Assembly (NCBI GenBank): GCA_021787595.1
Contig: JAJYLQ010000015.1
Coordinates: 1-64,000, forward strand
DNA: 64,000 nucleotides
From: Chloroflexota bacterium
GTDB lineage: Bacteria; Chloroflexota; Anaerolineae; Anaerolineales; Villigracilaceae
Reading direction: 5' to 3'
Part shown: positions 8,715 through 59,255 of the stretch, one piece after another
How the letters are laid out: the number at the start of each line of letters is the position of its first letter
How positions within the stretch are numbered: the first letter of the stretch is position 1
The notes under the pieces: model-generated
What the model was told of the DNA's origin: nothing
The model's database searches: none
Seen by the model: the letters and a program-made list of their open reading frames with translations, nothing else
Position numbers and translations under genes: made by a program

Positions 8715-8717
8715 TCC

Positions 8718-9256: not shown

Positions 9257-9261
9257 TCGGC

Positions 9262-9289
9262 ATCACACATTACGTCTCACGGATTACGT
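9262..9289. repeat. Short CATCAC/ACGGATTACG repeat tract
   Basis: The whole hypB-remnant to hypF spacer is made of degenerate direct repeats of the type ATCACACATTACG...TCACGGATTACG. It carries no clear ribosome-binding site for hypF. Confidence 0.4.
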
Positions 9290-38052: not shown

Positions 38053-38054
38053 CG

Positions 38055-40426: not shown

Positions 40427-40460
40427 AAAGGGCAGTCATTCGAAGGCGACCGCCCTTTTT
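40427..40460. terminator. Bidirectional terminator between two convergent operons
   Basis: AAAGGGC and GCCCTTT (40427-40433 and 40452-40458) with an inner AGTC/GAC pairing form a hairpin. It has TTTTT on the plus side and AAAG, read as a T-run, on the minus side. It can end both the regulator operon and the long minus-strand operon. Confidence 0.7.
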
Positions 40461-41403
40461 ATTCATGCGGTCCCCATGGAATATCGCGTGGAATGTCCGG
40501 CGGGCGGATCCAGCTTAACCAGCCGCTGCCCAACGATTGATTCTGCGGCTTTTCAAATTTCACCATCAGCAAACTCAGTGCGAGTCCGATGGCTCCCAGC
40601 CATTGTGACCATAAAAGCTGTTCGTGCAGCCAAATATTGCTGAAGAGAAGTGTGATCAACAATTCGCCAAGACCCAGCAGGGCAGTTTGCATTCCGCCGA
40701 TGCGCTTGACGCCAAAGAAAAGCGCGAGGCGCGAAGCAGACGTTACCAATGTCAGTCCAAAGACCGGCCACCACGGAAGCGAGAGCGAAGGCCATTGCCT
40801 GTCGAATAAAAGATAAACGGGCACAACCACTGCGCTCATTGCCATCAAAGTATAAAGCGTTACGGTCGGGGCCGGGACTTCATAGAGGACGCGCTGGTTG
40901 ATCGGAAGATGCAATGCGTAAAGGGCTGCGGCTCCAAGCATCATCAGCACGCCGAGCGGATCCGCTTGGTGGGCGGGGAGGCTGGTTAGCAGCAGCACGG
41001 CCAAAGTCGCAAGGATGATGCGATATACAGTCAATCGGCTGGGCGGCTGCCGGTCGAGAATCATCCATGTGGCTACGAAGAACGGGTAGAGCGAATACAA
41101 CATCTGGCCGAGACTGGCGCTCAGTCGAGTCAGTGCCATGTAATACAAGATGGAGCCGAGGCCGTTGATGACCCCCGCCAACATGCAGCCAATCAGGCCG
41201 ACAGGAAAAATGTAGAGATAGGAACGATAGAAAATCAGGACGAAGACGAAAACCAATCCAGCCGCCATGCTGGTCCTCAAGGCGACGACAGCCAGCGGAG
41301 AGAATCCAAAGTTGATGGCAAGTTTTCCGAAAACCGGGGAAAGCCCAAGAAAAACGGCTGAACCGAGTGCAGCGATGATCCCTGCTTCATGTCCCTTTTG
41401 CAT
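40459..41403 (-). CDS. EamA/DMT-family membrane transporter
   Basis: The 314-aa protein has ten hydrophobic segments arranged as two EamA repeats (AALGSAVFLGLSPVFGKLAI for the first, the MMLGAAALYALHLPINQRVL region for the second). DMT transporters of this type commonly export amino acids or related metabolites, but the substrate is unknown. It lies 32 bp after the threonine-synthase/REC gene on the same strand, as the last gene of the long operon, so amino-acid export is an attractive but unproven role. Confidence 0.82.
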   Translation of the reverse strand: MQKGHEAGIIAALGSAVFLGLSPVFGKLAINFGFSPLAVVALRTSMAAGLVFVFVLIFYRSYLYIFPVGLIGCMLAGVINGLGSILYYMALTRLSASLGQMLYSLYPFFVATWMILDRQPPSRLTVYRIILATLAVLLLTSLPAHQADPLGVLMMLGAAALYALHLPINQRVLYEVPAPTVTLYTLMAMSAVVVPVYLLFDRQWPSLSLPWWPVFGLTLVTSASRLALFFGVKRIGGMQTALLGLGELLITLLFSNIWLHEQLLWSQWLGAIGLALSLLMVKFEKPQNQSLGSGWLSWIRPPDIPRDIPWGPHE

Positions 41404-41435: not shown

Positions 41436-43106
41436 CTATTTTATCAACGCCTTGACTTCTTCGAGGAATTCATCGTTGAGGAAGTCGCCTTTTTGCATAA
41501 GCGTCTGGATCTGTGTTCCAAGCCGGCTTTTCTCGTCGGATGTCAACTCCTTGGCGGTTGCAACAATGACCGGGATATTGGCTGTATCGGGATTCGCCCG
41601 CAGCGCATCGAGCACGGCAAAGCCATCCACCTCAGGCATCATCAAATCGAGAATGATCAGGTCGGGCAGTTCCCGTTCGATGAGTTCCAGGCCTTCCCTG
41701 CCGTTGACCGCTTCATAGATGGTGAAATCGCCCTGCGATTGCAGGATGCGGCGGATCAACCGGCGCGCCTCTGCCGTGTCATCCACAATTGCCACGCGAT
41801 GGAAGCGTTCGGGCGCGACCTGATTGAGTGCGGACAACAAACCTTCTTCGGGCGTCTCCATCTTTTTGGTCGGGAACTGCACATCGCGCGTCCAGTTCGA
41901 GCCGAGGATGAATTCCTCGGCGGGCATGGTGTGTCCGGTGCAGTTGACCACAATCGTGTCGGAGGGCTTGATAACGCCAGCGCGAATCAATTTGAACAAA
42001 CCAGCGAAGGCGGTGGCCGCGGCGGGTTCGGCGGACAATCCCTCCATTTTTGCCAGCACGTGCATTGCGCGGAAGGCCTCCTCGTCGCTGACGCTTTCGA
42101 ACGTGCCGTTTGTTTCCAAGACGTGTTCGCGTAAAAGGGTATAAGAACGTCCCGGATCGCCGGTTGCCAGCGTTTCGATGTGGGTTTTTGGCGATATCAC
42201 CGGAATCGCGGTTTCGAGTCCCTGCCTGAAACTTTCGACCATCGGGGCGCACCCATCCGCCTGGATGACTGCGATGGACGGAATGCGGTTGATCAATCCC
42301 ATCTGCTGCAATTCACGGAAGCCTTTGTAAATGCCCAACGGTCCCATGCCGCCGCTGATGGCCTGCACGTACCAATCGGGCGTGCGCCAGACGGCAGCCC
42401 GGCCGTTTGCGGGTTTTGCCGGGCCTTGCAATGCAGTCAATTGTTCTGCGATTTCGAATGCGATGGTCTTCATCGCTTCGATCGAAGTGATCGTGCGCGC
42501 GCCCATATCCTGATAAAGACTACGCTGGCGCGCAAATTCCGCCGCGACTTGTTTGGCCTGATCGTACGATCCTGTGACTTTTACAACCTGACTTCCATAC
42601 AAAGCGATCTCACGCATCTTTACTGCGGGAACCAGGCTGGTCACGAACGCCCAAAGCTTGATCCCGGCCCGCGAGGCGTACGCCGAATACGAGATGGCGA
42701 CGTTGCCGGTGGAGGCGGCGACCATTTCCGTGATGCCGGCTTCTTTCAACGCGGCAATCGTGACCGCAGCCTGGCGATCTTTGAATGATCCGGTTGGCCC
42801 TTGACGCTCATCCTTGATGAACAGGTTCGGCGTCCCCAGCATCATGCCGAGATTCACCGCCTGAATCAACGGCGTGCCGCCCTCGCCGAGTGTCAGGGAA
42901 GGATTGGGGTTTCGGACCGGCAGAAGTTCGCGATACCGCCACAAGTCGAAGGGGCGATTCGAAAGCTGGAGCGGCAGGGTTTTGGCCAGGGTGTCGTAAT
43001 CGTACTCCGCCTCGCGCCATTGGCTGCCGCAGCGCGGGCAATTCGTTGATGTGGGAAAATAGGGCGCGCTGTGTCCACAGTCCAGACATTTGATAATGAA
43101 CGACAT
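41436..43106 (-). CDS. Threonine synthase-like PLP enzyme fused to a receiver domain
   Basis: The 556-aa protein has three parts. Residues 5-28 form a zinc ribbon (CLDC, CPRC). Residues 50-405 match fold-type II PLP enzymes of the threonine-synthase branch: GEGGTPL, PLP lysine Lys109 in GPTGSFKDRQ, ASTGNVAIS, SGGMGPLGIYKGF and CTGHTMPAEEF. Residues 436-554 are a complete REC domain: acidic pair Asp442/Asp443 (AIVDD), phospho-acceptor Asp487 (LIILDLMMPEVDG), and Lys539 (MQKG). Threonine synthase converts O-phosphohomoserine to threonine, but related enzymes use other substrates. The fusion implies phosphorylation control of the enzyme. The kinase gene ends 8 bp before it. Confidence 0.87.
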   Translation of the reverse strand: MSFIIKCLDCGHSAPYFPTSTNCPRCGSQWREAEYDYDTLAKTLPLQLSNRPFDLWRYRELLPVRNPNPSLTLGEGGTPLIQAVNLGMMLGTPNLFIKDERQGPTGSFKDRQAAVTIAALKEAGITEMVAASTGNVAISYSAYASRAGIKLWAFVTSLVPAVKMREIALYGSQVVKVTGSYDQAKQVAAEFARQRSLYQDMGARTITSIEAMKTIAFEIAEQLTALQGPAKPANGRAAVWRTPDWYVQAISGGMGPLGIYKGFRELQQMGLINRIPSIAVIQADGCAPMVESFRQGLETAIPVISPKTHIETLATGDPGRSYTLLREHVLETNGTFESVSDEEAFRAMHVLAKMEGLSAEPAAATAFAGLFKLIRAGVIKPSDTIVVNCTGHTMPAEEFILGSNWTRDVQFPTKKMETPEEGLLSALNQVAPERFHRVAIVDDTAEARRLIRRILQSQGDFTIYEAVNGREGLELIERELPDLIILDLMMPEVDGFAVLDALRANPDTANIPVIVATAKELTSDEKSRLGTQIQTLMQKGDFLNDEFLEEVKALIK

Positions 43107-43114
43107 CTAAATCC

Positions 43115-46100
43115 TTATTTTTTGATTTCCACGCGCTTCAATGCGCGTTCGAGTGTGCCAAGCAAATCTGCTTCGTTCAGGGCGCCTTTCCTGATGAGTC
43201 GCTGGCCGAATTCAGTCAACTGCCTTTGCTGTTCCGGCGTAAGTTCGCCGCCGCTGACTACAACCACAGGCGTATCGCGCAATTTAACGTTTTCGCGCAT
43301 CTTCTCGAGAATGGTGAAGCCGTCCATTTCGGGCATGTACAGATCCAGGATCACGGCCTGGGGCGGATGGGAGACCAGAGTCTCCCAACCCTTCGGGCCG
43401 CTGTCCATCATGGTCAATTTATAGCGCTGGTGACTCTCGAATATCTTGCCGATCAACCGCAGGGCATTCGGATCATCATCAATGACCAAAACTTCGCGGA
43501 TGCTGCCATCGGCGTTCAGGCGGTCCAACGCGCCGAGCAAATCTTCTTCGAGGATTGGCTTGAGCAGGTAATCTGCGGCGCCAAGGCTGAAACCGCGCTC
43601 CTGTTCTTCGATGATCGAACAGATCACGACTGGAATGTCGCGCGTCTCGCTGCTGGATTTGAGATCTGCCAGCACAGACCAGCCATCGTAGCCGGGCATC
43701 ATGATATCGAGGGTGATGGCGAACGGCTTGAGCTGCCGCGCCCGCTCTTTTGCGCGCGTCGGGTCGGTCAGCGCGACTACTTGATAACCCTGCGGCTGGA
43801 GATATCGCTCGTATAGCGAGATGACCTGCGGGTCATCATCAATGGCCAGCACAACCTTTTGGTCGGATGGTTCCGCTTCTTCTTCCTCCTTGCCGCGATA
43901 GACGGGCAGGGTGAAATAGAATGTGCTGCCCTTGCCAATTGTGCTGTGGACTCCGATGCGCCCGCCGTGCATCTGGATCAACTGGTGGCTGATGGAAAGC
44001 CCCAGGCCCGTTCCGCCGGTTTTGCGTGTCGGAGAATCATCCACTTGTGAGAATGGCTGGAAGAGCTTGGCTTGATCTTCCTGCGCGATGCCGGGGCCGG
44101 TATCCGTAACGCTGACAAGGATTTCGGGGCGGCCAGACGGTCCGGTTTCAACGGACGCATCAACGGTGATCTCGCCTTCATCTGTAAATTTGGCGGCGTT
44201 CGACATCAAATTAAGCAGCACTTGTCGGATGCGGATCGCGTCCGCGCGAACTGGGGGCAGTTCGCCGTGAATATTCTTCACCAGCTTGACATTTTTGTCC
44301 TTCACCAATCCGCTGGCGGTGGACATGACGCTTGAGATCAAATCGGACATATTGACCTGGTCGAAGGCTAATTCCATCTTTCCAGCTTCGATCTTTGCAA
44401 GATCGAGCACATCGTTGATCAGGCCAAGCAGGTGCTGGCCGGAGTTGTAAATCGCAGTCAAATCCTGCTGCTGCAGGTCGGAGACCGGCCCATCGATTCC
44501 CTTGAGAATGACGCGCGAGAATCCGATGATCGAATTGAGCGGGGTGCGTAATTCGTGGCTCATGTTGGCGAGGAACTGACTCTTCACCCGATCCACTTCA
44601 CGCATTTCCTTCACGGCCTGCTGGGATAACTCGTACGAGCGGGCGTTGTCAATGGCGATTGCAACCTGATCTGCAAGAATTTGAAGCACAGCCAGGTCAT
44701 CGGATGTAAACGCGCCAACGGCCGTGGATTGAATGTCCAGGGCGCCGATGATGCGGCTTCCGACTCGAAGCGGGATGGCAGCCTCTGCGCGTGTTTCGGG
44801 CAGCAGCGGGTTGGGTTTGTGCGTCGCGTCGAGCGCGGTGTTGTTAACAATGACCGGTTCGCCGGTATAAGTCACTTTGCCCACAACGGAATGTTCGTTG
44901 ATGGGCAGGCTGTGTTCCTTGAGCTTCATTTCAGCGCCAGCCGGGCCGGTGGCCTCGCGCAGGACGGCGTTGAATCCGGTCTCTTCCACGACAAAAATGG
45001 CGGAATGATAGTAGCCAAATCGTTCCCTGACCAGGTTGACGGTCCGGCTGAAGATGGTGTTCAAGTCGAGGGTCGAAGTGACGAGTCGCCCAATTTCAGC
45101 GGAGGCGGCGAGATATTCGTTCCGGCGCCTGAGCGCATCTTCAGCGCGCTTGACCTCGGTCATATCATGGTGAACGGCCAGGAAACCAATGATGTTGCCG
45201 CTCTCGTCCAGAATGGGGCTGTTCGTACCGGCGATGGGTATCAGTCGTCCATCTTTGGCTTTGTTCGTAATTTCCACCGGCAGCACTGTCTTCGACAATA
45301 ACGTATTCCAAAATTGCTGGTAATATTCCTTTGTCATCAGGCCGGATTGGAGAATGCGGGGATTTTTTCCGACGACCTCCCCGGATGGATATCCGTACAC
45401 CTTTTCGAATCCGGGGTTTGCATACACAATGATTCCATTGGCATCTGTCATGAAAATGGCGTCACCGGAATGGTCAATGCCCAGCTTGAACTTGGCCAGT
45501 TCTTCCTGTGATCGTTTGCGCTCGATTGCGACCGAGGCCTGGTTGGCAATCAGGCTCAGTGTTTCAAGGTCTGTTTCGGAGAAGCGAATGTCCGCATCGT
45601 ATGTTTGAACCGCCATCACGCCCAGGCGTTGAGCGCCGCTCCTTAATGGCGCGCCCATCCAATCGGTCCCGCGCGTGCCGCCGGCCTTAACTTCCCCGGT
45701 GCGTTCCAGTTCATCCAAAACTTCCGGGGTGACCAGCAGGGGCTTGCCGGTCCGCAAGATGTAACTTGTCAGCCCGCTGCCAGGCTTTTGGGGCGGCCAT
45801 GCCGAATCGTGTTCGTCGGCATAATAGGGAAATGTCATCGTGTCGGTATGTTCATCGTAAAGGCATACATAGAAGTTGCGGGCCGGCATCAGGGTTGCAA
45901 TGCTTTCGTGGATGGATTTCATCAGATTCGACATATCCGGGGCGGTCAAAGCCGCTTCGGATATCTGCGTGACGGCAGACTGGATCAATTCGTTATGTCT
46001 GCGCTCGGTGATATCGCGTGCCACAAGGAAGACTTGTTCCGCGTTCAGCCTGGAAAATGTGGCATCGAACCAGTAGTCCTTTTGGTCAATGGTCAGTTTG

Positions 46101-48304
46101 TATTCGAGCTTGACTTGTTCGCCGGTTTTCAATGAACGTTCGATGGCCGCCATGATCGGTTCAGCAGTTTCCGGCGGCAGGACTTCGTGTGTAGTCTTGC
46201 CAAGCATGTCCTCCGGCGGACGATATAAACGCGATGGGTTGGTCGGCGCGATGCGAACGTATCGGCCATTCTTATCCAGGATGATGATGACGTCGGTCAT
46301 GGACGAGAACAGCGCGCGCAACTCCGCTTCAGAACGTTCGACCGCCTGCTGGCTCTCGCGCGTTTCCTCAAACAGATGGGCGTTTTCGACGGCTATGGAG
46401 GCTTGACGCGCGATGCCGGTCAGGAATTCCAATTCCGAGGGTTGGAAGCCAAGTCCTGCGCCGGTTCGCCAGACGACCATGATGCCCGTCAAACGCTCGC
46501 CGGATAGCAGCGGCGCGGCCATCAAATGTTCGTGTGACAGCCGGGCTGTGCCGGCAATCGTAAGCGCGCGCGGATCGCTCATTGCCTCGTTAAAAACGGC
46601 GCCTGATTTGTTCAGGGCCACCGAACCCAGAATCCCTTCGCCGAGTCTGACCGGATCGTTTTTGATCTCTTCCGCTTCGTCGCCGATTGCAACGAACGCA
46701 TGGAGAACCTGGTTGTTTGGTTCGGGGATGTATACTGCGCTGCTGAACGAGGCCAATGATTCTTTCGCGTGCGCGGCGATCTTTTCCAACACAGTTTGAA
46801 GGTCGAGCGAGGCGGAAATATCCTGGCCCACTTCTGCAAGCACCGACATCTGACGTGCATTGCTCTGTGTTGCTTCGAAGAGCCGGGAGTTTTGTAGGAA
46901 CGTGCTGATTTGCAGCAAGATGGTGTTGATCAGGTTCTCTTCGTTTTCTGAAAGTTTTCGATCCGACTCCGCAAAGTCAATGCCGAGCGAACCGATGGCC
47001 TCCTGGCCGGCAAAAATGGGCCAGATGAAAAGGCTTTGGGTGCCGCGTATCTTCAGCACATCCCGGATGGCGGCCGTGAGAGGATGATTCAGCGCGTCGT
47101 TGATGAACAGCGGCTTCCCGGATTTGATCACCGGTTCGGCGGTCGGGTTGCCCTCAACGGGGATTACCAGGCCGATGTCGCTTTTGCCGTCGGGGCTTAC
47201 CGGCGCATCCACCCGCAGGATCAGGGCGGTTCGATCTTCGTTGGCGAGTGCAATGCCCACATGCAGAGCCGATACCAGCCTGGCGACTTCGTCCGCGACC
47301 TCCTGCAGACTCTCTGTCACGTTCAGGGAGCGGGAGGCGTTGGTCACAATGCGGTTGAGGAGAAGCGCTTCCTCTTCGCGCTTTTGGGTTTCCTGGAACA
47401 GGCGAATCTTTTCGATGGCGATGGAGGCCTGCCCGATCAGGGCTGTCAAATGTTGGAGTTCATCGTCTGTGAACAGCGTGGTTTCGGTATAGTACGCCGC
47501 AAGATAGCCGATCCAATCCCTGCTCACGGTCAGCGGAGCAAAGAGCGCGGACCTGGCGTGAAATTGTTCGTTTAGAAGGGCGCGTGTGTTGCTGTCCAGC
47601 CGTTCGTCTGTTGCAGTGTCTGCGACTACGGTGGGCTGGCCCGGATTTAGAAATTTGACAGCCGGATAATCCCGTACGAGTAAACGTGCGGCGCGATGGC
47701 TTGGGTTGGATGGTTCAGGCGGCCAGTCGGCGATGAGGTGCATGAATTCCGGGGTTTGCTGGCTGTTCCATGCCTGGTCGAATTGCATCACCCTGCCGAT
47801 CATGGCGCGGTTCAAAACAGTATGCTTCCGAAGGACAGAAAATATTTCATCGAAGGATTGCGCGGCATTGAGCTCGGCGTTTGCCTCGTAAAGCGATTTC
47901 GTCTCTGCCAGCGCCTTTTGTGTCTCCTGGAAGAGCCGCGCGTTTTCCAGCGCGAGCGACAGCTGGTCGGCGACTTGTTTGACCAGCATCTGTTCTTCCA
48001 TGGCCCAGCTGCGCGGGGCGGCTTCATCCAATACGCGTAAAGTTGCCCAGCTTTTCTCGTCCTGTCGAAAAGCGAGCGACATCGCGCTGGAACTGCTGGA
48101 GACGGCGGATGTGATGAGGGGCGCCTCTTCGAGTGCCGGAGAAGCTGATTTGGGCTGGCCCGCCCTGGGCCGGGGAGGAGGCGGGATAAGCTGCGGCCTG
48201 GCAGGTTCAGCCGCTTTCCCGGCGCGCTGGGACGGCCTGGTTTCTTCCTTAGCTACATTGTCGAAGAGATGTTCAAGCCGTTTGTTGGTCTTTTTCTTTG
48301 ACAT
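43115..48304 (-). CDS. Giant soluble GAF/PAS hybrid histidine kinase, two C-terminal receivers
   Basis: From ATG 48304 (AGGAG 10 bases upstream) the product has 1,729 residues and no membrane segment. Order: Pro-rich linker (20-70), half-GAF (75-125), GAFs at about 145-310, 325-480 and 490-650, PAS (655-770), GAF (780-935), PAS (940-1055), GAF (1065-1230), HisKA with His1250 (MSHELRTPLN), HATPase (1345-1470, NLMSNAAKFT, DTGPGI, GGTGLGL), REC1 with Asp1533 (ITLDIMMPGYDG) and REC2 with Asp1654 (VILDLYMPEMDG). The last GAF belongs to the same subtype as the receptor GAFs upstream (FGYYH-AIF, NPLLPETRAE). It overlaps the ParA gene by 32 bp. It is the only kinase in the operon seen here. Confidence 0.9.
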   Translation of the reverse strand: MSKKKTNKRLEHLFDNVAKEETRPSQRAGKAAEPARPQLIPPPPRPRAGQPKSASPALEEAPLITSAVSSSSSAMSLAFRQDEKSWATLRVLDEAAPRSWAMEEQMLVKQVADQLSLALENARLFQETQKALAETKSLYEANAELNAAQSFDEIFSVLRKHTVLNRAMIGRVMQFDQAWNSQQTPEFMHLIADWPPEPSNPSHRAARLLVRDYPAVKFLNPGQPTVVADTATDERLDSNTRALLNEQFHARSALFAPLTVSRDWIGYLAAYYTETTLFTDDELQHLTALIGQASIAIEKIRLFQETQKREEEALLLNRIVTNASRSLNVTESLQEVADEVARLVSALHVGIALANEDRTALILRVDAPVSPDGKSDIGLVIPVEGNPTAEPVIKSGKPLFINDALNHPLTAAIRDVLKIRGTQSLFIWPIFAGQEAIGSLGIDFAESDRKLSENEENLINTILLQISTFLQNSRLFEATQSNARQMSVLAEVGQDISASLDLQTVLEKIAAHAKESLASFSSAVYIPEPNNQVLHAFVAIGDEAEEIKNDPVRLGEGILGSVALNKSGAVFNEAMSDPRALTIAGTARLSHEHLMAAPLLSGERLTGIMVVWRTGAGLGFQPSELEFLTGIARQASIAVENAHLFEETRESQQAVERSEAELRALFSSMTDVIIILDKNGRYVRIAPTNPSRLYRPPEDMLGKTTHEVLPPETAEPIMAAIERSLKTGEQVKLEYKLTIDQKDYWFDATFSRLNAEQVFLVARDITERRHNELIQSAVTQISEAALTAPDMSNLMKSIHESIATLMPARNFYVCLYDEHTDTMTFPYYADEHDSAWPPQKPGSGLTSYILRTGKPLLVTPEVLDELERTGEVKAGGTRGTDWMGAPLRSGAQRLGVMAVQTYDADIRFSETDLETLSLIANQASVAIERKRSQEELAKFKLGIDHSGDAIFMTDANGIIVYANPGFEKVYGYPSGEVVGKNPRILQSGLMTKEYYQQFWNTLLSKTVLPVEITNKAKDGRLIPIAGTNSPILDESGNIIGFLAVHHDMTEVKRAEDALRRRNEYLAASAEIGRLVTSTLDLNTIFSRTVNLVRERFGYYHSAIFVVEETGFNAVLREATGPAGAEMKLKEHSLPINEHSVVGKVTYTGEPVIVNNTALDATHKPNPLLPETRAEAAIPLRVGSRIIGALDIQSTAVGAFTSDDLAVLQILADQVAIAIDNARSYELSQQAVKEMREVDRVKSQFLANMSHELRTPLNSIIGFSRVILKGIDGPVSDLQQQDLTAIYNSGQHLLGLINDVLDLAKIEAGKMELAFDQVNMSDLISSVMSTASGLVKDKNVKLVKNIHGELPPVRADAIRIRQVLLNLMSNAAKFTDEGEITVDASVETGPSGRPEILVSVTDTGPGIAQEDQAKLFQPFSQVDDSPTRKTGGTGLGLSISHQLIQMHGGRIGVHSTIGKGSTFYFTLPVYRGKEEEEAEPSDQKVVLAIDDDPQVISLYERYLQPQGYQVVALTDPTRAKERARQLKPFAITLDIMMPGYDGWSVLADLKSSSETRDIPVVICSIIEEQERGFSLGAADYLLKPILEEDLLGALDRLNADGSIREVLVIDDDPNALRLIGKIFESHQRYKLTMMDSGPKGWETLVSHPPQAVILDLYMPEMDGFTILEKMRENVKLRDTPVVVVSGGELTPEQQRQLTEFGQRLIRKGALNEADLLGTLERALKRVEIKK

Positions 48305-49058
48305 ATTCCATAAGCTCCTGCGCCAGTTCACGATACTGAAGCGATCCGCGAGCGCTGGGTTTATAACGCGTAATGGGTAATCCGGCGATTGGACTTTCGC
48401 GGAGCTTTGTGTCAACCTCGATCACCGTTTTGAAAAGTCCTTCGCCGAATCTGTTTTGCAGTTGCTCCTGAATGTTGCGATGGGTGCGGTTGCGGCGATC
48501 AAGCAATGTGATCAGAACGCGATAGCCAAGGTTTGGGTTGCTTTCCTGCCGCACGCGCCGGATGACGCCCATCATGTTGCGCAGCGCATAAGCGGAAAAA
48601 TATTCAGCCTGTGTTGGGATGATCAGCAGGTCGGAAGCGCTCAAGGCATTGGTAGTGATCGCGCCCAGGAAAGGCGGACAATCGAACAGGATATAGTCAT
48701 AAGGCAGCGGGGAGGCATTCTCGATCGCCCGCTTCAAACCGGACGTGTAGTGGGTACGCACCGGAAGGAATTGTTCTGCGCTTTCGATGCTGGCATGCGA
48801 AGGAATGAGATCAAGATGCTCGATCTCGGTGGACATCCGGGCGCTCATCAAGGGGGCGGATTCGATCAGGATGTGGCTCGAGGTCACCGCGGCTGAACCC
48901 GGTTCGATCCCCAGGGCCAGCGTCAGGTTGGCCTGCGGGTCCAGGTCCACCACCAGGACTCTCTGCCCGGCTTCTGTCAATGCGGCGCCCAGAGAGAGGG
49001 TCGTTGTGGTTTTGGCAACGCCGCCTTTTTCGTTCGAGATCGCGACAACGTAGCTCAT
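48273..49058 (-). CDS. ParA/MinD-family ATPase, no ParB nearby
   Basis: The 261-aa protein has the deviant Walker A ISNEKGGVAKTTTTLS (signature Lys at NEKGGVAKT), VLVVDLDPQANLT (Walker A'), and YILFDCPPFLGAITTNAL (Walker B). ParA-type ATPases form gradients that segregate DNA or position protein complexes such as chemoreceptor arrays, carboxysomes and flagella. No ParB and no obvious parS array is present. The gene overlaps the receptor gene upstream by 4 bp and the giant kinase by 32 bp, so it is embedded in the signalling operon. A positioning role for the receptors is inference. Confidence 0.88.
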   Translation of the reverse strand: MSYVVAISNEKGGVAKTTTTLSLGAALTEAGQRVLVVDLDPQANLTLALGIEPGSAAVTSSHILIESAPLMSARMSTEIEHLDLIPSHASIESAEQFLPVRTHYTSGLKRAIENASPLPYDYILFDCPPFLGAITTNALSASDLLIIPTQAEYFSAYALRNMMGVIRRVRQESNPNLGYRVLITLLDRRNRTHRNIQEQLQNRFGEGLFKTVIEVDTKLRESPIAGLPITRYKPSARGSLQYRELAQELMEYVKEKDQQTA

Positions 49059-51598
49059 GTCTTTGCTCCATTTCCGCCTGGAGTTGTTTCGTTCGATTTG
49101 TCAGAGGCCGAAGTAAATATTTTTCTTTCCAGATCCTGCGGGGCCGAAATTGCCTGCGGGATCAATTGAACCTGTGTTGCGCCGAGTGCGTTCCGCAATT
49201 CGTTCAGCGCGATCTTGATCATGGATTCCGGATCGTTCGTGCTTCGAATCTTCGACGTGATCTCGGTCACCATTCGCTCGCGTTCCGCGCGCCGGCTGGT
49301 CTCATCAAACAGACGGGCATTTTCGGCAGAGAGGGCAATGCGTTCCGCCACGGCCCGAATCAAATCCATTTGGTCGCGGCTCAGGCGCGAATTTTGCGGG
49401 ATCTGGATCCTGAGATTGCCAATCGTTTCGCCGCGTAATTTGATGGGAACGATTACGTGATTGCCCGGATTGCCATCAGAGTTTTGCGCCTGTCCCAGAT
49501 CAACCGGCGTTTCCATCGGCGAAGCGCCGCGGGACGTATAGCGGAACCCTGCCAGTTGCTGCTCACGCGGCAGACGACTCCAGGCCTGGCGGAGGTACTG
49601 GCGATAAAGCGTTTCCGCTTCCTCGAGGGATCGGCGGGTAGTTTCGTACATGCGCGTATTGTCAATTGCCAGGCTTACCTGATCTGCGAGAATCATCAGC
49701 ACGCGAATATCCTCCTCTGAGAACGCATCCGGTTCGCGGCTTTGAACATCCAGCACTCCAACAATACTTTCGCCGGATCGCAGCGGCAGGGCCATCTCTG
49801 ATTTTGTCTCAGGCAGGTCGGGGTTATCGAAAAAGGCCGCATCTTCGCCCACGCTGCGCGCCACGCGTGGTTTCCCCGTCGAAGCCACGTTGCCCACGAT
49901 GCCCTGTTCGCCAACCTTCAGGTTGTGGCCGCGTGCCAGCATTTTTTGTCCGCCTTCGCTGTTTGCGGCGGTAAGATAAGTATATTGATTGGTTTCGTTG
50001 TTCAGGAAGATGCCAGTGTGATAATAACCAAATTGTTCGCTGATGACGGCCGTGATGCGCGGCAGCAACTCTTCCATGCGGCGGATCGAGTTGATCGCCT
50101 GAGTTACCAGCGCCAAGGCCTCGAACTGAGCCGCGCGCCGCTCGTTCTTTTTGTTGGCAGACTGTAATTCCACTGTGCGGTCGTTTACCCGCTGCTCCAA
50201 ACCCTGCAACGTGTCGCGCAATCGTCCCGTCATGCTGTTGAACGTGGAGGCCAGTGTTCCAATTTCGTCCCGGCTTTGTATGCGCACCTCTGCGTTGAGG
50301 TTGCCGTTTGCAATTTCCTCGACAGTTTGTGTCAAGATTCCCAGCGGCTGCATCAAGCGGCTGCCAATTCCAAGCGCGGCCAACAAGGAGATGACCAGGA
50401 CGGCGATCACGATGAACAAACTCACAATGATGGTGTTTCTCGCGGACTGGGCGATTTGTGCCTGGGCAGCCGCGGCCCCCGCGAGCAATTCCTGGGACGG
50501 AACGATGACCGCAAGGCTGTATCCTATGCTGGACACGGGACGATAGGCGACAAAATGTTCCACCCCGTTTAATTGGATGGTTTCGAAGCCGCTTTGGCCG
50601 GAGCTCATTCTATCCAGGATCTGCCAAAATTCAGGCGGCAGGGGCGCCACGACCTTGGTCGGGTCCAGCAATTGTCCCAAGGGAACTGCGCTGGGGGAGA
50701 TTTCGAATTCCTTGTACCCCGAAGCAGGCATGGCAATCAACCTGTGGTTCCTGTCGATCAGGAAGGAATATCCTGTATTTCCAATATGGATGTTCGACAC
50801 CACGCTGGTAATTTCATTAAGCTGGAAATCCATCGCGACGACGCCGCGAAAAGTCCCGTTCGAATCGTAGACAGGAGCGCTGCTTGTCACGATCAAACCG
50901 TGACGTGCGGCGTCCAGGTAGGGATCGGACCATACGACCTGGCGGGATGGATCTTGTGCAGGTGATGCATCCAAGAACCATGGTCTTTGTGTCACGTCGA
51001 AATCCGGCGGCACGAGAGATGCGAGATCAATATTGGGGTAGTACACGGTCTCCCCGGATGCGCCTCCAAAATAAACGGCTGTCACCCCCGGGTTCGACTT
51101 GAGCATCGTGGGAACGGTAAAATCCAACTGTCTGATGGTGTTCAATTCGGATATCAGATCAGGTGTAAGATCGTATTTTGCGGGAATGAAGACGGAGGCC
51201 GTATCTGTTTTTGAAGTATCCCAGCTGCCGTTCGTCAGGCGGCTCAATGAATTGGCCGCATTCCAATAGATCCCATTATTCAGGCTGGCCTCTTGCGAGA
51301 CTAAATTGCCGGCTGTTGTGCCAACCATGGTGATGTTCATGGCTGCTGTGGCAAAGAAGTTATTGAGAGCCGCAGCTTGTTCCGTGCCGGTTGCGTTCAT
51401 TTGGGTCTCGGCCTGTTGACGGACGCTGGCTGCCAGCTGAGTTGCCAGATAGGAGTTCGCCTCCTGCGCGCGATAATAAACGTAATATCCCAATCCTGCA
51501 ACCGCGAGGAAAGTGATGATCATATTGCTTAGGATCAACCGGGTGCGGAGACTGAGCGACCTGGCGGCAGAAGTGTTCTTTGGTGAAAAGTTTTCCAT
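49055..51598 (-). CDS. dCache-HAMP-GAF-GAF receptor, no kinase
   Basis: The 847-aa protein has TM1 (21-42), a large extracytoplasmic double-Cache domain (50-375), TM2 (388-411), HAMP (412-465), a coiled coil, a full GAF (505-650, FGYYHTGIF and NPDLPETKSEM), a linker (YRQYLRQAW, 665-700), a short degenerate GAF (715-765), and a shared tail (775-815). No kinase, cyclase, GGDEF or methyl-accepting domain follows. The Cache contains R-x-W-F (205-208), Y227 and D257 in the spacing of the amino-acid-binding dCache motif, with F instead of Y at two positions. The next gene (ParA) overlaps by 4 bp. Confidence 0.86.
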   Translation of the reverse strand: MENFSPKNTSAARSLSLRTRLILSNMIITFLAVAGLGYYVYYRAQEANSYLATQLAASVRQQAETQMNATGTEQAAALNNFFATAAMNITMVGTTAGNLVSQEASLNNGIYWNAANSLSRLTNGSWDTSKTDTASVFIPAKYDLTPDLISELNTIRQLDFTVPTMLKSNPGVTAVYFGGASGETVYYPNIDLASLVPPDFDVTQRPWFLDASPAQDPSRQVVWSDPYLDAARHGLIVTSSAPVYDSNGTFRGVVAMDFQLNEITSVVSNIHIGNTGYSFLIDRNHRLIAMPASGYKEFEISPSAVPLGQLLDPTKVVAPLPPEFWQILDRMSSGQSGFETIQLNGVEHFVAYRPVSSIGYSLAVIVPSQELLAGAAAAQAQIAQSARNTIIVSLFIVIAVLVISLLAALGIGSRLMQPLGILTQTVEEIANGNLNAEVRIQSRDEIGTLASTFNSMTGRLRDTLQGLEQRVNDRTVELQSANKKNERRAAQFEALALVTQAINSIRRMEELLPRITAVISEQFGYYHTGIFLNNETNQYTYLTAANSEGGQKMLARGHNLKVGEQGIVGNVASTGKPRVARSVGEDAAFFDNPDLPETKSEMALPLRSGESIVGVLDVQSREPDAFSEEDIRVLMILADQVSLAIDNTRMYETTRRSLEEAETLYRQYLRQAWSRLPREQQLAGFRYTSRGASPMETPVDLGQAQNSDGNPGNHVIVPIKLRGETIGNLRIQIPQNSRLSRDQMDLIRAVAERIALSAENARLFDETSRRAERERMVTEITSKIRSTNDPESMIKIALNELRNALGATQVQLIPQAISAPQDLERKIFTSASDKSNETTPGGNGAKT

Positions 51599-51603
51599 AA
51601 GAA

Positions 51604-53967
51604 TTACTTTTCTTTGCTCTCAATTGGGTTGCCGGCCTGGAACTGAACGATCACATCCGAACCGGGAATGGCGCGGCCAAGCTCTTCCGCAGCGGTCTGA
51701 AGCACATTTCGCATGTTGATGGATGCGCTGATCTTGGACGTAACTTCGCTGATGAGCTGTTCCTTCGAGGCGCGCCTTTGTGAATCTTCGATCAGGGTCG
51801 CGTTTTCAGCCGCCAGCGCCACACGCGCCGCCACGGCTTCGATAATGTCAACCTCGTCTTCGTTCCAGTCCGGGTCCTGGGCTTTACGAACATCGAGCAG
51901 GCCTATGACTTCGTCTCGCAATTTGATCGGGACCGTCAGTGTTGCCTGCTGGTTTTGCGCATCTCCGTTCCTCATCAGCTTGCCGCCATTGGCGAGCGCG
52001 GTGTCAATTTCAGGATTTTCGAGGGATGAATCCAGACGGGAGAGGCTGGCTCCCGCCAGCCGGTATCCGATTCGTTTTTCCCCGGTTATCTCGCTCAAGG
52101 CGGACAGGAGATATTGCCTGTACGTGGCGCGTGCTTCACGCAGCGCGCGATCAGTTGCTTCGAACAGGCGCGCATTTTGGATTGCGATGCTCACCTGATT
52201 CGCCAGCGTCGAAAGGACATCGATATCTTCATGCGTGAATGCGGAGGGTTCCTCGCTTTGAACATCAAGGACGCCGATCACGCGCTGGTCCGCGGCCAGC
52301 GGCAGGGCCATTTCGGAGCGGGTAGCCGGGAGGTCGGGATTGTCGAAGAAAACGGCGTCCGCTCCGGTGTCGAGGGCAATGCGAGGGATTCCTTTTCCAG
52401 CGGCATATCCCACAATGCCCTGTTCCCCAACTTTGAGTCGGTGGCCCTGCTGCGCCATTCTTTGCCCGCCTTCGCTGTTTGCGGCATGGAGTACGGCGAA
52501 TTCACCCGCCTCATCCAGCAGGAAGATGCCCACGTGATAAAAGCCGAATTGCGTGCTGATGGTCTGCGTAATTTGGGGAAGAAGCTTTTCAAGGTCATGA
52601 ATGGACGTTATGGACTCGGATACCCTGGAGATGGCCTCCAATTGCGAGGCGCGTCGTTCCGCTTGTTGACTGGCCAGTGCCAGCTCTGCGGTGCGCTCGT
52701 TTACGCGCTGCTCCAGCGTACCAATCAAGCTTCGCAATTGCGAAGTCATGTTCTTGAACGAAGAAGTCAACGCTCCAATTTCGTCTTCGAACGGCCGGTC
52801 GGGGATGGGGGTATCGAGTTGTCCGCTTCCAACTTCCACCGCTGCGTCTCTCAACAGGATGATCGGATCGGCAATCTGGCTGGCGATGAATTGAATGGCC
52901 GCAAACAGCACGATGAGCAAAGCCGCGCCGAATGTTATCAGCGTCTGCGTGGTCCCGTTTGTCGATTCTTGCAGTTGCTGCAAAAGGCTGGTGTAGTCCA
53001 CGATTGCCGCGCCGGAGATTTTCCCGGAAGCATTGTAGACCGGCGCCACGATGATGTTCGCGCTTTGAGCGGAAGCCTTGCTGTATTCGACAAACGTGCG
53101 GATCTTTCCATCTTCGAGCGTGGCCGCGACTTCTCCGTTTGGATCCGACTTATAAATGGTAAACATGTTGGCGTTGTTTGGATCTGCCAGGATGCGTTTC
53201 TGGAGATCCACGATTTCGGTGTACCGATGCTGGCTTTTATTTAGTTGGGCCACGTAATCCTGTGCGCTGGCTGGATAACGTCCCACCGACACAGCAATCG
53301 ATTCGACGACGTTGGAGGCCTCGGCGATTGCCGCAGTCTGGGTTTCGAGATATTGCTGCCGGACTGCAAGACTTCCAAAGATACCAGCGACAAGGAAAAT
53401 GACCGTAAAGCCGACGAGGAGTCTTGCGCGCAGCGAATGCCTGAATTGCTGGATCAGGAAATAACCAAAGATCAACGCGATTGCGGTTATCAGGGCGGGT
53501 ACAAAGATTTCCACAAATGCGGGGGCCGGCAGGCGGTAGGATGGAGCCAGAGCATCCAGGAGAATACTGATCAGGCCGCTGAACGCGGCCGTGATTGCCG
53601 TAATAATGGTTGCGCGGGAGGGCAAAGTTACAGCCGCAGTCATGGCAGTGAGAAGTGCTATGCCCAGCGCAAATGTCAGCCCAACGCCGGTTATCAGCGC
53701 CGTCCCGGCCGCGAATACGATTTGCGCAGCGCCGATCAACACGAGCATGCCGCGGGTCGTATTGCCGCGCCGTACCATGAACAGGCTGACGATTGCAGCA
53801 ACCAGCAATATCAAGGTGTCAACGAAAAGCGCAATTAGCTGCCAGGCTGGCTGCTTAATGGCCAGGTACAGATAAAGCGCATCGGCAAGGGTTGAGCCTG
53901 CAATGCCAATCAAAGCAATTTGATGAGCGGCTTTGGCTTGCGGATTCATACGGGCCTGTACAGTCAT
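51604..53967 (-). CDS. Multi-TM/HAMP/GAF-GAF receptor, no kinase
   Basis: The 787-aa protein has five or six N-terminal membrane helices (15-175), a further TM (about 180-205), an extracytoplasmic stretch of about 135 residues resembling a single Cache, another TM (345-365), HAMP (366-420, DEIGALTSSFKNM), a GAF (455-600, FGFYHVGIFLLDE, NPDLPATRSEM), the linker (YRQYLLSAL), a short GAF (660-720) and the shared tail (725-770). ATG 53967 has GGAG nine bases upstream; the in-frame ATG six codons later is possible. No catalytic output domain is visible. Confidence 0.83.
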   Translation of the reverse strand: MTVQARMNPQAKAAHQIALIGIAGSTLADALYLYLAIKQPAWQLIALFVDTLILLVAAIVSLFMVRRGNTTRGMLVLIGAAQIVFAAGTALITGVGLTFALGIALLTAMTAAVTLPSRATIITAITAAFSGLISILLDALAPSYRLPAPAFVEIFVPALITAIALIFGYFLIQQFRHSLRARLLVGFTVIFLVAGIFGSLAVRQQYLETQTAAIAEASNVVESIAVSVGRYPASAQDYVAQLNKSQHRYTEIVDLQKRILADPNNANMFTIYKSDPNGEVAATLEDGKIRTFVEYSKASAQSANIIVAPVYNASGKISGAAIVDYTSLLQQLQESTNGTTQTLITFGAALLIVLFAAIQFIASQIADPIILLRDAAVEVGSGQLDTPIPDRPFEDEIGALTSSFKNMTSQLRSLIGTLEQRVNERTAELALASQQAERRASQLEAISRVSESITSIHDLEKLLPQITQTISTQFGFYHVGIFLLDEAGEFAVLHAANSEGGQRMAQQGHRLKVGEQGIVGYAAGKGIPRIALDTGADAVFFDNPDLPATRSEMALPLAADQRVIGVLDVQSEEPSAFTHEDIDVLSTLANQVSIAIQNARLFEATDRALREARATYRQYLLSALSEITGEKRIGYRLAGASLSRLDSSLENPEIDTALANGGKLMRNGDAQNQQATLTVPIKLRDEVIGLLDVRKAQDPDWNEDEVDIIEAVAARVALAAENATLIEDSQRRASKEQLISEVTSKISASINMRNVLQTAAEELGRAIPGSDVIVQFQAGNPIESKEK

Positions 53968-53982
53968 CGCGAAAGCTCCACT

Positions 53983-55707
53983 TTAATATCGTGAATCCCT
54001 GGTTTGCTTATCGGCTGCAATCCTGGATGGTTCCAATTGGATGGTGATTTCAGAGCCGGTCATGATTTTTCCGAGTTCCTGCGCGGCCAGTTGCATGATC
54101 GAATCGATGTTGGTGGATGACCCAATTCGCGCTGAGATTTCCTCGATAGTATGCTCTTTCGCGGCACGCGTTTGTGCGTCCCCGTAGAGTCGGGCGCTTT
54201 CCAGCGCGCCGCTTAATTGATCCGAGAGCACCTGGACCAGCTGGATTTCGTTTTCGGTCCAGTGCTCTTCGTCGGTTTTGACCAGCCGCAGCACTCCAAC
54301 AACTTGGCCGCGGATGACTATGGGCGCGAACAACCTGACCTGATCTGTGCTTGTAACGGGACGATTCTGAGAAATTGCCTCCAGGGATTTTGGATCCGCC
54401 TCTTCCTTTGCCGGCGCGAACCGATGGATTTCACGCCCATTACTTATAAATCCAAGTTCTTTTCTCGTTTCGAGCTGCCGCTTCCAGGCATCTATGGAAG
54501 CTTCGCCATACGCACGGCGGGCCGCCTCCGCGGCCGACCGGCTTTCAGCGAGCAGGCGCGAGTTTTCGATGGCAATGGCCAGTTGATCGGCGACCACCTG
54601 CAAGACTTCCACATCTTCATTGGTAAACGCATTTGATTGCGTGGATTGAATGTCCAGCACACCAAGGACGCGTCCGCCAACTTTTATGGGAAGCGCCATC
54701 TCGGAATGGGTCTCCGGCAGGTCGGGATTATTGAAAAACACCGCGTCCTGTCCAACATCCAGTGCGATGCGGCCCCGGTTGGCTTTTGCCGCATAGCCCA
54801 CGATACCTGTGCCTGCTTCCAGCCTGTGACCGCGCTGTAACATCCTTTGTCCGCCTTCGCTGTTCGACGCGCGCAGGATTGCAAACTTACCAAGCTCATC
54901 CAGAAGGAAAATGCCAGCATGATAGAAACCAAACCGAGTGCTCAACAGGCGGACAGCCTGGTTGAGCAGCGCATCCAGATCGCGGGCAGAGGCCGCCGCA
55001 TTTCCAATTTCCGCTGCGGCACGCAGTTGGACGGCACGGCGTTCCAGGTCCCGGGTGCGCTCGCTCACGCGCCGTTCGAGGTTCGAGCGCTCATCTTCCA
55101 GGGCATGGTTGGCCTGGATTTGTTTTTGTTCATTCGTATGCGCGCGCCGGATACTTTCATTGAGTCTTTGTATCAGGACACGCTGTATATACGCGACTGC
55201 CAGCACCACGACGGAGAGATTCAGCGGAGAAAACAGATTGGTCAACGAACTGGTCGGCGATTTGAGCAGACCCTGCATCTCGCCTATTCCAATTCCAAAT
55301 ATACTCAGTACAATTAGCGCGCCAAACACCAGCGTAGCGTCCTGTCCCAATGTCAGCCCGGCAATCGCAATCACGCCTGCGTACGCCAGCAAGTCAATAT
55401 CATGCAAGCCATATCCGGTCGCAACGATGAAGGTTACGACTACATAAAGCGTGGTTGGGAGCAGGACCTGGGCAGGCAGCAGACTGCCGCGTCTGAGCAG
55501 TAATAGGCAGACTATCGCAGAAGCAACCAGGGCTATCAGGGGCAGCGCAAGAATCAGCCCATAATTGCCAGCCAGCGTCAGGATCAACGCGGCCAGGCCA
55601 GCAGCCAATGAAACAAACAAGAGCGTTCGCAGCGTCTGGATCATTGAACGCGTTTCGGTCTCATCCGAGTATTTGGGAAGCAGCGCCGTCTTCAACTCGT
55701 CTGACAT
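53983..55707 (-). CDS. Multi-TM/GAF-GAF receptor, no kinase
   Basis: The 574-aa protein starts with about six membrane helices (25-175) that could form a small-molecule or membrane-state sensor. A coiled coil (180-230) joins them to a GAF (240-390, FGFYHAGIFLLDE, NPDLPETHSEM), the linker (AYGEASIDAW), a short GAF (455-505) and the shared tail (515-555). No HAMP and no catalytic domain are present. It follows the Cache-type receptor gene by 9 bp. Confidence 0.82.
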   Translation of the reverse strand: MSDELKTALLPKYSDETETRSMIQTLRTLLFVSLAAGLAALILTLAGNYGLILALPLIALVASAIVCLLLLRRGSLLPAQVLLPTTLYVVVTFIVATGYGLHDIDLLAYAGVIAIAGLTLGQDATLVFGALIVLSIFGIGIGEMQGLLKSPTSSLTNLFSPLNLSVVVLAVAYIQRVLIQRLNESIRRAHTNEQKQIQANHALEDERSNLERRVSERTRDLERRAVQLRAAAEIGNAAASARDLDALLNQAVRLLSTRFGFYHAGIFLLDELGKFAILRASNSEGGQRMLQRGHRLEAGTGIVGYAAKANRGRIALDVGQDAVFFNNPDLPETHSEMALPIKVGGRVLGVLDIQSTQSNAFTNEDVEVLQVVADQLAIAIENSRLLAESRSAAEAARRAYGEASIDAWKRQLETRKELGFISNGREIHRFAPAKEEADPKSLEAISQNRPVTSTDQVRLFAPIVIRGQVVGVLRLVKTDEEHWTENEIQLVQVLSDQLSGALESARLYGDAQTRAAKEHTIEEISARIGSSTNIDSIMQLAAQELGKIMTGSEITIQLEPSRIAADKQTRDSRY

Positions 55708-55716
55708 TCCTGCACC

Positions 55717-57858: not shown

Positions 57859-57893
57859 ATTGAGGCGCTTCCGTTTTCCTCTTTGAAGTTTCG

Positions 57894-59255
57894 CTAATTG
57901 CCCTTGCCTGGTTCCGCGCCGGCCTGCTTCTCTTCGGTCCCGCCGACGAACACGGATACTTCTGCCACATCGGGCAGCGCGCCGAGTTCGCGCACGGCTG
58001 TTCGAAGAAGCGCGTCGATATCCAGGGAACGGCTCAAGCGTGTGGAGATTTCGTTCACCGTTTGCTCCTGCACGGCGCGCTGGCGCGTCTCGCTCAGCAA
58101 CCGGCTGTTATCGAGTGCCAGCGACACCTGCGTCGCGATCTTTTCAGCCAGGTCACGTTCGGAGCTGGACCAATTTGCAATGTCGTGCCTGCGCAAAACA
58201 ATCGAGCCAATTGCCTGGCCGCGCAGGATCAAAGGAATTTTCATGCCATTGCCGTCTTCCAGTCTCGCGTTCGCCGCGACGGATTTGACTCCCGCCGGCG
58301 AAAATTGGTATGCGATGTTTCGGCCCTGCAGATATGTGCGCCAGGCCACGCGGGTTTGCTGGGAAGTGATCATTTCTAGCTCGCTGACAATGGCCCGCGA
58401 CTCGTTCAGAAGGCGGATATTATCCATGGCGGCCGCGATCTGGTCTGCGAGCAGCTGAAGAATTTCGGCCTCACCCTGACTGAAAGCGGCCGCCTGTGCC
58501 GACCAAATATCGAGGACGCCGCTCACTTTTCCGCGCGTAACCATGGGGATGGCGATCTCTGCCCGGGGTTGGGGCGATTCGGGATCTTCACTGGGCAATC
58601 CGCTGCCCGCTTCGGAGAATCGAAGCGTCTTATTTTGTTCTGCGGCGCGTCCCACGAGGCTCGTTCCGCCCACTGCGACAAAGTAACCCTGTTCCAGCAA
58701 TTTCCTGCCGGCCCCGGATGACGAAGCCTGCAGAAACGCCTTTTCATGTTGTTCATCCAGGAGAAAGATATTAACCTGGGAATAATCAAATCGTTCGCCA
58801 ATTAATTCAGCGGCTTTCGACAACAACATTGACGGGTCCTGGATGCCCGCCATCTCGCGCGAGAAGCGGACCGCCATGGTCATTTGGGAGTTTCTATTTT
58901 CCAACTCGCGGGTGCGCTCTCTGACCCGCTGTTCCAGGTCCAGCCGAATGGGCACAATTTCCCTTTCGCGTTCGATCAACCTCTCATTTGTTTGAAGGAG
59001 AACATCCTGACGCCTTCCGGCCAGCCCCGCGATCGTTCCGAGAAAGAACGGAGCTGTGTCTATGATCCACAACAGGATTTCGTTCTGCTGGACTGCGATC
59101 AGGTTTGGCAGCGTCAACGTCAATCGTTCTTCTGCTACTTTGAGCAGTGTGGCAATCAGCGGAAACAGCAACCCCAGGATAATGCCTGTGATCGCATATT
59201 GCCGGGTCCGCAAACTAGATGGTCTTGGGCTTTGAGGTACCCTGGAATCAGCCAT
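57894..59255 (-). CDS. Two-TM/GAF-GAF receptor, no kinase
   Basis: The 453-aa protein is the smallest of the set: TM1 (22-42) and TM2 (62-80) with hardly any external loop, a coiled coil (85-125), a GAF (130-290, with IFLLDE but a divergent second half), the linker (RVAWRTYL), a short GAF (335-390) and the shared tail (395-435). Its start overlaps the previous stop by 8 bp. With so little outside the membrane it may sense membrane state or a partner rather than an external ligand. Confidence 0.82.
   Translation of the reverse strand: MADSRVPQSPRPSSLRTRQYAITGIILGLLFPLIATLLKVAEERLTLTLPNLIAVQQNEILLWIIDTAPFFLGTIAGLAGRRQDVLLQTNERLIEREREIVPIRLDLEQRVRERTRELENRNSQMTMAVRFSREMAGIQDPSMLLSKAAELIGERFDYSQVNIFLLDEQHEKAFLQASSSGAGRKLLEQGYFVAVGGTSLVGRAAEQNKTLRFSEAGSGLPSEDPESPQPRAEIAIPMVTRGKVSGVLDIWSAQAAAFSQGEAEILQLLADQIAAAMDNIRLLNESRAIVSELEMITSQQTRVAWRTYLQGRNIAYQFSPAGVKSVAANARLEDGNGMKIPLILRGQAIGSIVLRRHDIANWSSSERDLAEKIATQVSLALDNSRLLSETRQRAVQEQTVNEISTRLSRSLDIDALLRTAVRELGALPDVAEVSVFVGGTEEKQAGAEPGKGN

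Follow-up and report, generated by a model that had tools for sequence, protein, structure and literature searches.

The window, by which we mean the whole stretch of 64,000 nucleotides that was analysed, contains on its minus strand a single open reading frame (41436-43106) encoding a protein of 556 amino acids, in which a zinc-ribbon-like N terminus is followed by a fold-type II PLP domain and, at the C-terminal end, by a receiver (REC) domain (Table 1). In Pfam, the PALP match of this fusion protein reached 217.6 bits against a cut-off of 35, and its Response_reg match (PF00072), for which the cut-off is 30.2 bits, reached 67.2. At E-values up to 0.001, PALP and then REC were found, and no other domain. 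An earlier note on this DNA had described a PLP enzyme joined in one frame to a complete REC domain, with Lys109, Asp442/443, Asp487 and Lys539 as the key residues, and all of these were found where it had placed them, Lys109 lying within TGSFKDRQA. It gave no strand for the frame. The span that it gave for a check of the fusion (about 41780-41850) overlaps the linker (about 41799-41906).

An AlphaFold2 model (55 family members) had a mean pLDDT of 81.6 and was mostly confident in the PLP part. The pLDDT values were below 50 at residues 393-421, and the block means were 73-90 for residues 431-510 and 47-62 for residues 511-556. Because the model is weak in this second half of the receiver, no interface between receiver and enzyme can be read from it. 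The order of the domains in the fusion protein is therefore sure, whereas the model leaves it uncertain how the receiver sits against the enzyme. Most rows of the structure comparison span residues 30-409, that is the PLP part, and the assignment of the receiver therefore rests on Pfam.

The gene directly upstream of the fusion gene encodes a histidine kinase. This gene ends at 43115, leaving the gap of 8 bp that the earlier note had stated, and it includes two receiver stretches. The called frame of the kinase reaches 48415 from a TTG codon, and an MSKKK start that fits the relatives lies at 48304.

Table 1. Features of the fusion gene and its surroundings in the window.
Feature	Position	Strand	Basis
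Fold-type II PLP enzyme with a receiver at its C terminus (556 aa)	41436..43106	-	Open frame, Pfam, residue check
Zinc-ribbon-like N terminus with Cys7, Cys10, Cys23 and Cys26	43029..43088	-	Cysteines conserved; metal binding predicted
PALP (PLP-dependent, threonine-synthase-like) domain, residues 72-391	41934..42893	-	Pfam PF00291, E 3.1e-64
Lys109, predicted Schiff-base lysine	42780..42782	-	Conservation
Residues 202-214, signature G.......E.MKT in place of threonine-synthase NSxNxxRxEGQKT	42465..42503	-	Conservation
Linker, residues 401-436	41799..41906 (about)	-	Between Pfam domains; residues 393-421 with pLDDT < 50
Receiver domain, residues 437-556	41439..41798	-	Pfam PF00072, residues 438-539, E 1.8e-18
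Asp487, predicted phospho-acceptor	41646..41648	-	Conservation
Lys539, conserved receiver lysine, followed by Gly	41490..41492	-	Conservation
EamA/DMT-type transporter, directly downstream	40459..41403	-	Pfam EamA, two stretches
Histidine kinase: basic N-terminal peptide, GAF and PAS, HisKA, HATPase, two receivers	43115..48304	-	Pfam
First receiver of the kinase	43526..43852	-	Residues 1522-1630, Pfam; acceptor Asp in 86/86 two-receiver kinases
Last receiver of the kinase with some preceding linker	43166..43549	-	tblastn match in own genome, tree
ParA/MinD-type ATPase	48273..49058	-	Pfam AAA_31, E 5.3e-48
Run of seven Cache/HAMP/GAF/MASE11 proteins, upstream, possible inputs	49055..64000	-	Last frame passes the window end

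Conservation and spread of the fusion

We read 110 proteins of the close group and removed 12 identical ones, which left 98 distinct proteins including the window copy. The 97 others are 60-93% identical to that copy. For these and all counts below it should be noted that the loci counted are relatives and not independent events. Lys109, Asn135, Asp443 and Asp487 were each present in all 98 proteins. Residue 442 was acidic throughout (Asp in 63, Glu in 35), Lys539 was found in all 97 proteins with a residue at this position (one gap), and residue 517 was Thr or Ser in 97 of the 98, again with one gap. In the divergent members, Lys109, Asn135, Asp443, Asp487 and Lys539 were each present in 19 of 19 sequences, with Asp or Glu at position 442 and Ser or Thr at position 517. 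The four N-terminal cysteines were likewise complete, both in the close group (98/98) and in the divergent members (19/19). Three divergent members (L134, L135 and L140) carry two receivers in tandem behind the PLP domain.

Within the close group the PLP domain was the most conserved part, with a mean conservation of 0.83 as compared to 0.79 for the REC domain. Pairwise dN/dS values for seven pairs, in some of which dS was saturated, were 0-0.055 for REC and 0.013-0.065 for the PLP domain. The conserved residues and the low dN/dS values indicate that the fusion is old and that both of its halves are under purifying selection. A sequencing error that fuses two genes, which the earlier note had named as a threat to its claim, is ruled out by the identical architecture in 97 distinct relatives from other assemblies and by the similar dN/dS of the two parts. 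The same holds for a degenerate receiver, or a loss of key REC residues in relatives, since the phosphorylation residues are kept in close and divergent members and the dN/dS of the REC domain is low.

The fusion was found in 131 of 150 genomes sampled from the window's family, including 81 of the 88 good-quality ones (E-values up to 1e-60). At E-values up to 1e-70 it was found in 127 of 251 genomes sampled from the order, 145 of 396 from the class and 41 of 400 from the phylum, these three samples being overlapping. Good-quality genomes without a match numbered 7 of 88 in the family and 57 of 139 in the order sample. Seven of the 41 phylum-sample genomes with the fusion lie outside the class, and six of these seven belong to one genus with genomes of 6.0-6.8 Mb. 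All matches of the phylum sample, and all those listed for family, order and class, extend to residue 490 or beyond and hence into the receiver.

When the PALP part alone was used as the query against the 400 phylum genomes, 55 matches of at least 51% identity were obtained, all of them in frames of at least 549 amino acids; at each of these 55 sites the match of the full-length query includes the receiver. Below these 55, the identity drops to 13 matches at 36-39%, and the three of these 13 that were examined have the canonical threonine-synthase motif and no REC domain. A receiver-less PALP relative of more than 39% identity, which could have served as a guide to the substrate, was not found in the 400 phylum genomes. 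In a tree of PALP domains, 27 REC-bearing proteins were split from 10 canonical ones with a support of 100/100; some of the canonical rows are long-branched, and where such branches join calls for caution.

Most of the best 80 matches of a wider contig search have Anaerolineae, Anaerolineales, Chloroflexi or a genus within these groups in their titles. Plasmid records, searched as a control, gave 485 matches, none of which covered more than 80% of the query. The ten listed had about 70% coverage and 32-34% identity, and five of them are annotated as threonine synthase. In one record titled Blastopirellula marina (L050), a copy with 79% identity follows a kinase like those of the other loci, and this record is probably a misnamed Anaerolineae bin.

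The kinase, the paralogue loci and the wider gene run

A histidine-kinase core is encoded directly upstream of the fusion gene in 93 of the 98 close loci. Three of the other five loci are cut by contig ends, one seemingly has a split frame, and L104 is truly without a kinase. Of the 93 kinases, 86 end in two receivers, five in one and two in none, and the H-box pattern was found in 89. The acceptor Asp is present in both receivers of all 86 two-receiver kinases, and the receiver Lys is present in the last receiver of all 86 and in the first receiver of 69. The kinase's own two receivers, found in 86 of the 93, may be its main phosphorylation targets. Among 18 divergent loci, 14 have a kinase core upstream, and 8 of these 14 kinases are without a C-terminal receiver.

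The earlier note had called the two kinase receivers similar in style to that of the enzyme. In a quick REC tree with many weak forks, the enzyme receivers group with the last and apart from the first receivers of the two-receiver kinases (SH-aLRT 98), so that this description applies to the last receiver and not to the first. Seven of the nine last receivers are set apart in a cluster with long branches, and in five other kinases the only receiver belongs with the first type. This tree does not support the idea that the enzyme gained its receiver by a recent duplication of the last one in the kinase.

We also compared 20 loci of a paralogue at about 50%. The family search listed 24 second copies, of which 19 were used here, together with one from the order sample; of the remaining listed second copies, three are L128-L130 and two were left out. 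A kinase core lies upstream in 18 of these 20 loci, and none of these 18 kinases showed a receiver. The paralogous fusion gene is followed by a receiver-only (CheY) frame in 20 of 20 loci; in L159 this frame has two receivers, and in L169 the receiver is part of a longer overlapping frame. Since no receiver was detected in the 18 kinases, the fusion protein and CheY are obvious targets for them. These receiver-less kinases with an enzyme and a CheY as neighbours are the best circumstantial evidence that phosphate may be transferred directly to the enzyme. A canonical zinc-ribbon threonine synthase is encoded directly behind CheY in 8 of the 20 paralogue loci. Such an enzyme behind a paralogous fusion gene and CheY was observed in L128, L130, L150, L151, L155, L158, L159, L160, L168 and L169.

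Further genes accompany the fusion gene and the kinase. An EamA frame is present in 92 of the 94 loci with 500 nt of room, and a ParA-like frame lies upstream of the kinase in 63 of the 66 loci with room. The kinase starts with a short basic peptide (MSKKKTNKRLEHLF), which is encoded in the overlap with the end of the ParA gene (48273-48304), and a start of the form M..K...(R/K/N)(L/I)..(L/I/F)F was found in 60 of the 69 kinases not cut by a locus edge. The partners of ParA proteins stimulate ParA through basic peptides. The kinase peptide resembles these, so ParA may position the kinase. No kinase domain was found by Pfam in the seven Cache/HAMP/GAF/MASE11 proteins (49055-64000), and no HPt domain among the 19 window proteins scanned. 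Judged by their spacing, the genes of this run may be co-transcribed.

Several other signalling genes were seen nearby. Two CheY-like frames lie just beyond the window (C30 64725-65610). Converging on the run from the plus strand (35464-40357) are genes for a GAF kinase, a receiver-kinase and an OmpR-type regulator, and many of the listed close loci have a relative of this regulator on the far side of the transporter. In L144, two long frames that lie outside the window and further upstream on the same strand (7445-10381 and 14786-17758 of L144) begin, by eye, like eukaryotic-type Ser/Thr kinases (IGKTL...GGM).

Relation of the PLP domain to threonine synthase

The PLP domain is most similar to threonine synthases. 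In the structure comparison these came first, with a Z-score of 35.4 and an rmsd of 2.0-2.7 over 327-328 residues, and the threonine synthases among the best structural matches of the PALP domain had Z-scores of 31-35. Cysteate synthase (9k3c) ranked fifth (Z 34.1), with 375 residues aligned and the N terminus also covered. In the profile search, five threonine synthase sequences ranked first and 9k3c sixth. The likeness to threonine synthase (ThrC; TIGR00260, PRK08197/NF006050) includes the fold, the TGSFKDR lysine region and a zinc-ribbon N terminus of the PRK08197 type. What sets the fusion protein apart is the C-terminal receiver, the kinase neighbour, the replacement of NSxNxxRxEG and scores below the cut-offs.

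The fusion protein scored 157.3 bits on TIGR00260, where the cut-off is 167.1, and 258.9 bits on NF006050, where it is 303. These two belong to six threonine synthase models, among the best 25 of 122 families, whose cut-offs were not reached, the other four being further off. On the cysteate synthase model TIGR03844 it scored 108.1 bits, far from the cut-off of 324.9, and the genome's other zinc-ribbon threonine synthase scored 79.4 bits on this model.

The motif NSxNxxRxEGQKT is kept in five aligned threonine synthases from the PDB (2zsj, 6cgq, 2d1f, 1uim and 1e5x). In its place, the fusion family has Gly202, Glu210, Lys213 and Thr214 in 98 of 98 close and 19 of 19 divergent members, and Met212 in 98 of 98 and 18 of 19. 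In threonine synthases, the Arg of the NSxNxxR stretch probably holds the phosphate of O-phosphohomoserine. At the column of this Arg, all 98 close members have S, A, C, T or N and all 19 divergent members A, G or S, whereas R is found in 8 of the 10 canonical proteins.

The genome itself holds a separate threonine synthase (C43:84179-85207) with 304 bits on TIGR00260, where 167.1 are needed, and a thrB match lies beside it on the same strand (C43:85288-86199). A second canonical enzyme in the genome, the zinc-ribbon threonine synthase L002, scored 579.8 bits on NF006050 (cut-off 303). L002, a close relative of the zinc-ribbon enzymes behind CheY in the paralogue loci, lies on a different contig and has no fusion gene near it. 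Across the family, 145 of 150 genomes have a TIGR00260 match over the cut-off, and that this is a gene distinct from the fusion was established in the window's genome. The view that the fusion protein is the housekeeping threonine synthase is therefore rejected for this genome, where a separate thrC match over the cut-off stands beside thrB. For the same reason, and because of the scores below the cut-offs and the replaced NSxNxxRxEG, the earlier note's description of an amino-acid biosynthetic enzyme is not supported, in so far as this means an enzyme for threonine. The fusion proteins are probably not the threonine synthase of their cells.

Candidate roles of the fusion protein

We consider that the fusion protein is a response regulator with a PLP enzyme as its output, belonging to the threonine-synthase/cysteate-synthase branch of fold-type II, and assign a probability of roughly 0.6 to this sequence-based reading. 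The fusion to an intact receiver and the kinase neighbour further suggest that in many Anaerolineae signalling acts directly on an amino-acid enzyme. Points against this reading are the genomes that lack the fusion, the loci without a recognisable kinase core upstream, and the two receivers that most close-group kinases have themselves and that may be the main targets. Response regulators with enzymatic outputs are a known kind, represented by CheB, the PleD-type cyclases, and HD-GYP and EAL proteins. Like these, the fusion protein unites an intact receiver and a catalytic domain in one chain, and a histidine kinase gene is adjacent. Unlike them, it has its receiver at the C terminus, and its output is a PLP enzyme of amino-acid metabolism rather than a signalling enzyme. 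The CheB and PleD models match only the receiver part of the fusion protein.

The steps by which such a regulator would work can be sketched as follows. The GAF/Cache array would perhaps feed the upstream kinase, and the kinase would phosphorylate Asp487 directly, which is consistent with the lack of HPt domains among the window proteins scanned. By analogy with other C-terminal regulatory domains of fold-type II enzymes, the phosphorylated C-terminal receiver may then change the access to the PLP active site, or its closure. The enzyme would carry out a replacement or an elimination on an amino acid, probably not O-phosphohomoserine, the type of reaction being a guess. A further guess is that the EamA transporter would export or import the product or the substrate. 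It is possible, though doubtful, that all of these parts together make up a lineage-wide two-component system, in which a ParA-positioned kinase fed by GAF/Cache proteins acts on the PLP enzyme and thereby on a small molecule, a signal or a specialised amino acid, that is exported by the transporter encoded in the same run. The output of such a system would be amino-acid chemistry and not transcription.

The main alternative is that the PLP domain acts as an amino-acid sensor that gates its own receiver, the protein then being a ligand-gated phosphate sink or an adaptor for the kinase. In the GabR/MocR regulators, the fold of a PLP enzyme is used to sense. This alternative would fit the location among signalling genes (GAF/Cache proteins and a kinase, and CheY in the paralogue loci), the loss of the substrate motif of threonine synthase and the existence of members with two receivers. 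The amino acid that is sensed could come from the canonical threonine synthase that stands behind CheY in 8 of the 20 paralogue loci. Against it speak the invariance of Lys109 and Asn135 (98/98 and 19/19) and the conservation of the PLP domain, which exceeds that of the other parts. The conserved Lys109 is not decisive in this respect, because a sensor using PLP as bait would keep the lysine too. Altogether, we regard a sensory role of the PLP domain as rather unlikely.

The fusion protein might also be a second threonine synthase in which the receiver has a purely structural part, comparable to the wing that AAT-fold lysine/ornithine/arginine decarboxylases derive from a receiver. Its closest structures and profiles are indeed threonine synthases, and the score of 157.3 bits lies just under the TIGR00260 cut-off of 167.1. 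However, the phosphorylation residues of the receiver are kept, a kinase is the usual neighbour, the scores stay below the cut-offs, the motif is replaced, and in 145 of the 150 family genomes TIGR00260 has a match above its cut-off, which in the window's genome is another gene. A second threonine synthase is accordingly very unlikely. As for the decarboxylases, the available text of PMC8503589 describes extended ('winged') AAT-fold ornithine, lysine and arginine decarboxylases with an N-terminal CheY-like receiver domain on a fold-type I enzyme. They share with the fusion protein that a PLP enzyme serving amino-acid metabolism carries a CheY-like receiver domain in the same chain. They differ in that the fusion protein, as far as that text allows the comparison, has a C-terminal receiver, belongs to fold-type II, conserves the phosphorylation residues and is linked to a kinase. 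The fusion protein has no fold-type I decarboxylase core behind an N-terminal wing, the Pfam order being PALP and then REC.

A special case of the response-regulator reading would be a regulated enzyme that resembles cysteate synthase or otherwise uses O-phosphoserine; this is highly improbable. In its favour, 9k3c is among the top structural matches and also covers the N terminus of the fusion protein (Z 34.1 over 375 residues), and the cysteate synthase model gives 108.1 bits here vs 79.4 for the other zinc-ribbon threonine synthase of the genome. Against it, the score falls far short of the TIGR03844 cut-off of 324.9, and five threonine synthase sequences stand above 9k3c in the profile search. 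Cysteate synthase (9k3c; TIGR03844) thus resembles the fusion protein in fold and N-terminal coverage and differs in score. According to the available part of PMC11211663, cysteate synthase starts a pathway of sulfonolipid synthesis.

The reading of the fusion protein as a response regulator with a PLP enzyme as output can be set beside what is published on related proteins. In the portion of a review available to us (PMC9081730), C-terminal regulatory domains are described as central to the allostery of fold-type II enzymes. Cystathionine beta-synthase and threonine deaminase, as presented there, resemble the fusion protein in having a regulatory domain behind the PLP core, but they bind small effectors, where the fusion protein has a receiver. 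The word 'receiver' is absent from the text of this review as far as it was available. For a cyanobacterial ThrC, both threonine synthase and deaminase activity are reported, and the accessible part of that article (PMC12172450) does not mention a receiver. A census of signal transduction states, in its accessible part, that other enzymatic output domains were left out of consideration (PMC1183210). No report of a threonine-synthase-like output of a response regulator was found in the openly licensed literature, which is weak evidence of novelty.

Two-component systems are thought to act through genes, second messengers or motors. If the fusion protein is indeed a response regulator with a PLP enzyme as output, phosphorylation would directly control small-molecule chemistry, through an intact receiver on a PLP enzyme that is found in well over 100 genomes and mostly has a kinase as its neighbour. 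Sequence comparison would tend to label such fusion proteins as 'threonine synthase'. The kinase and the fusion protein are a concrete, purifiable pair with which direct control of this kind could be tested.
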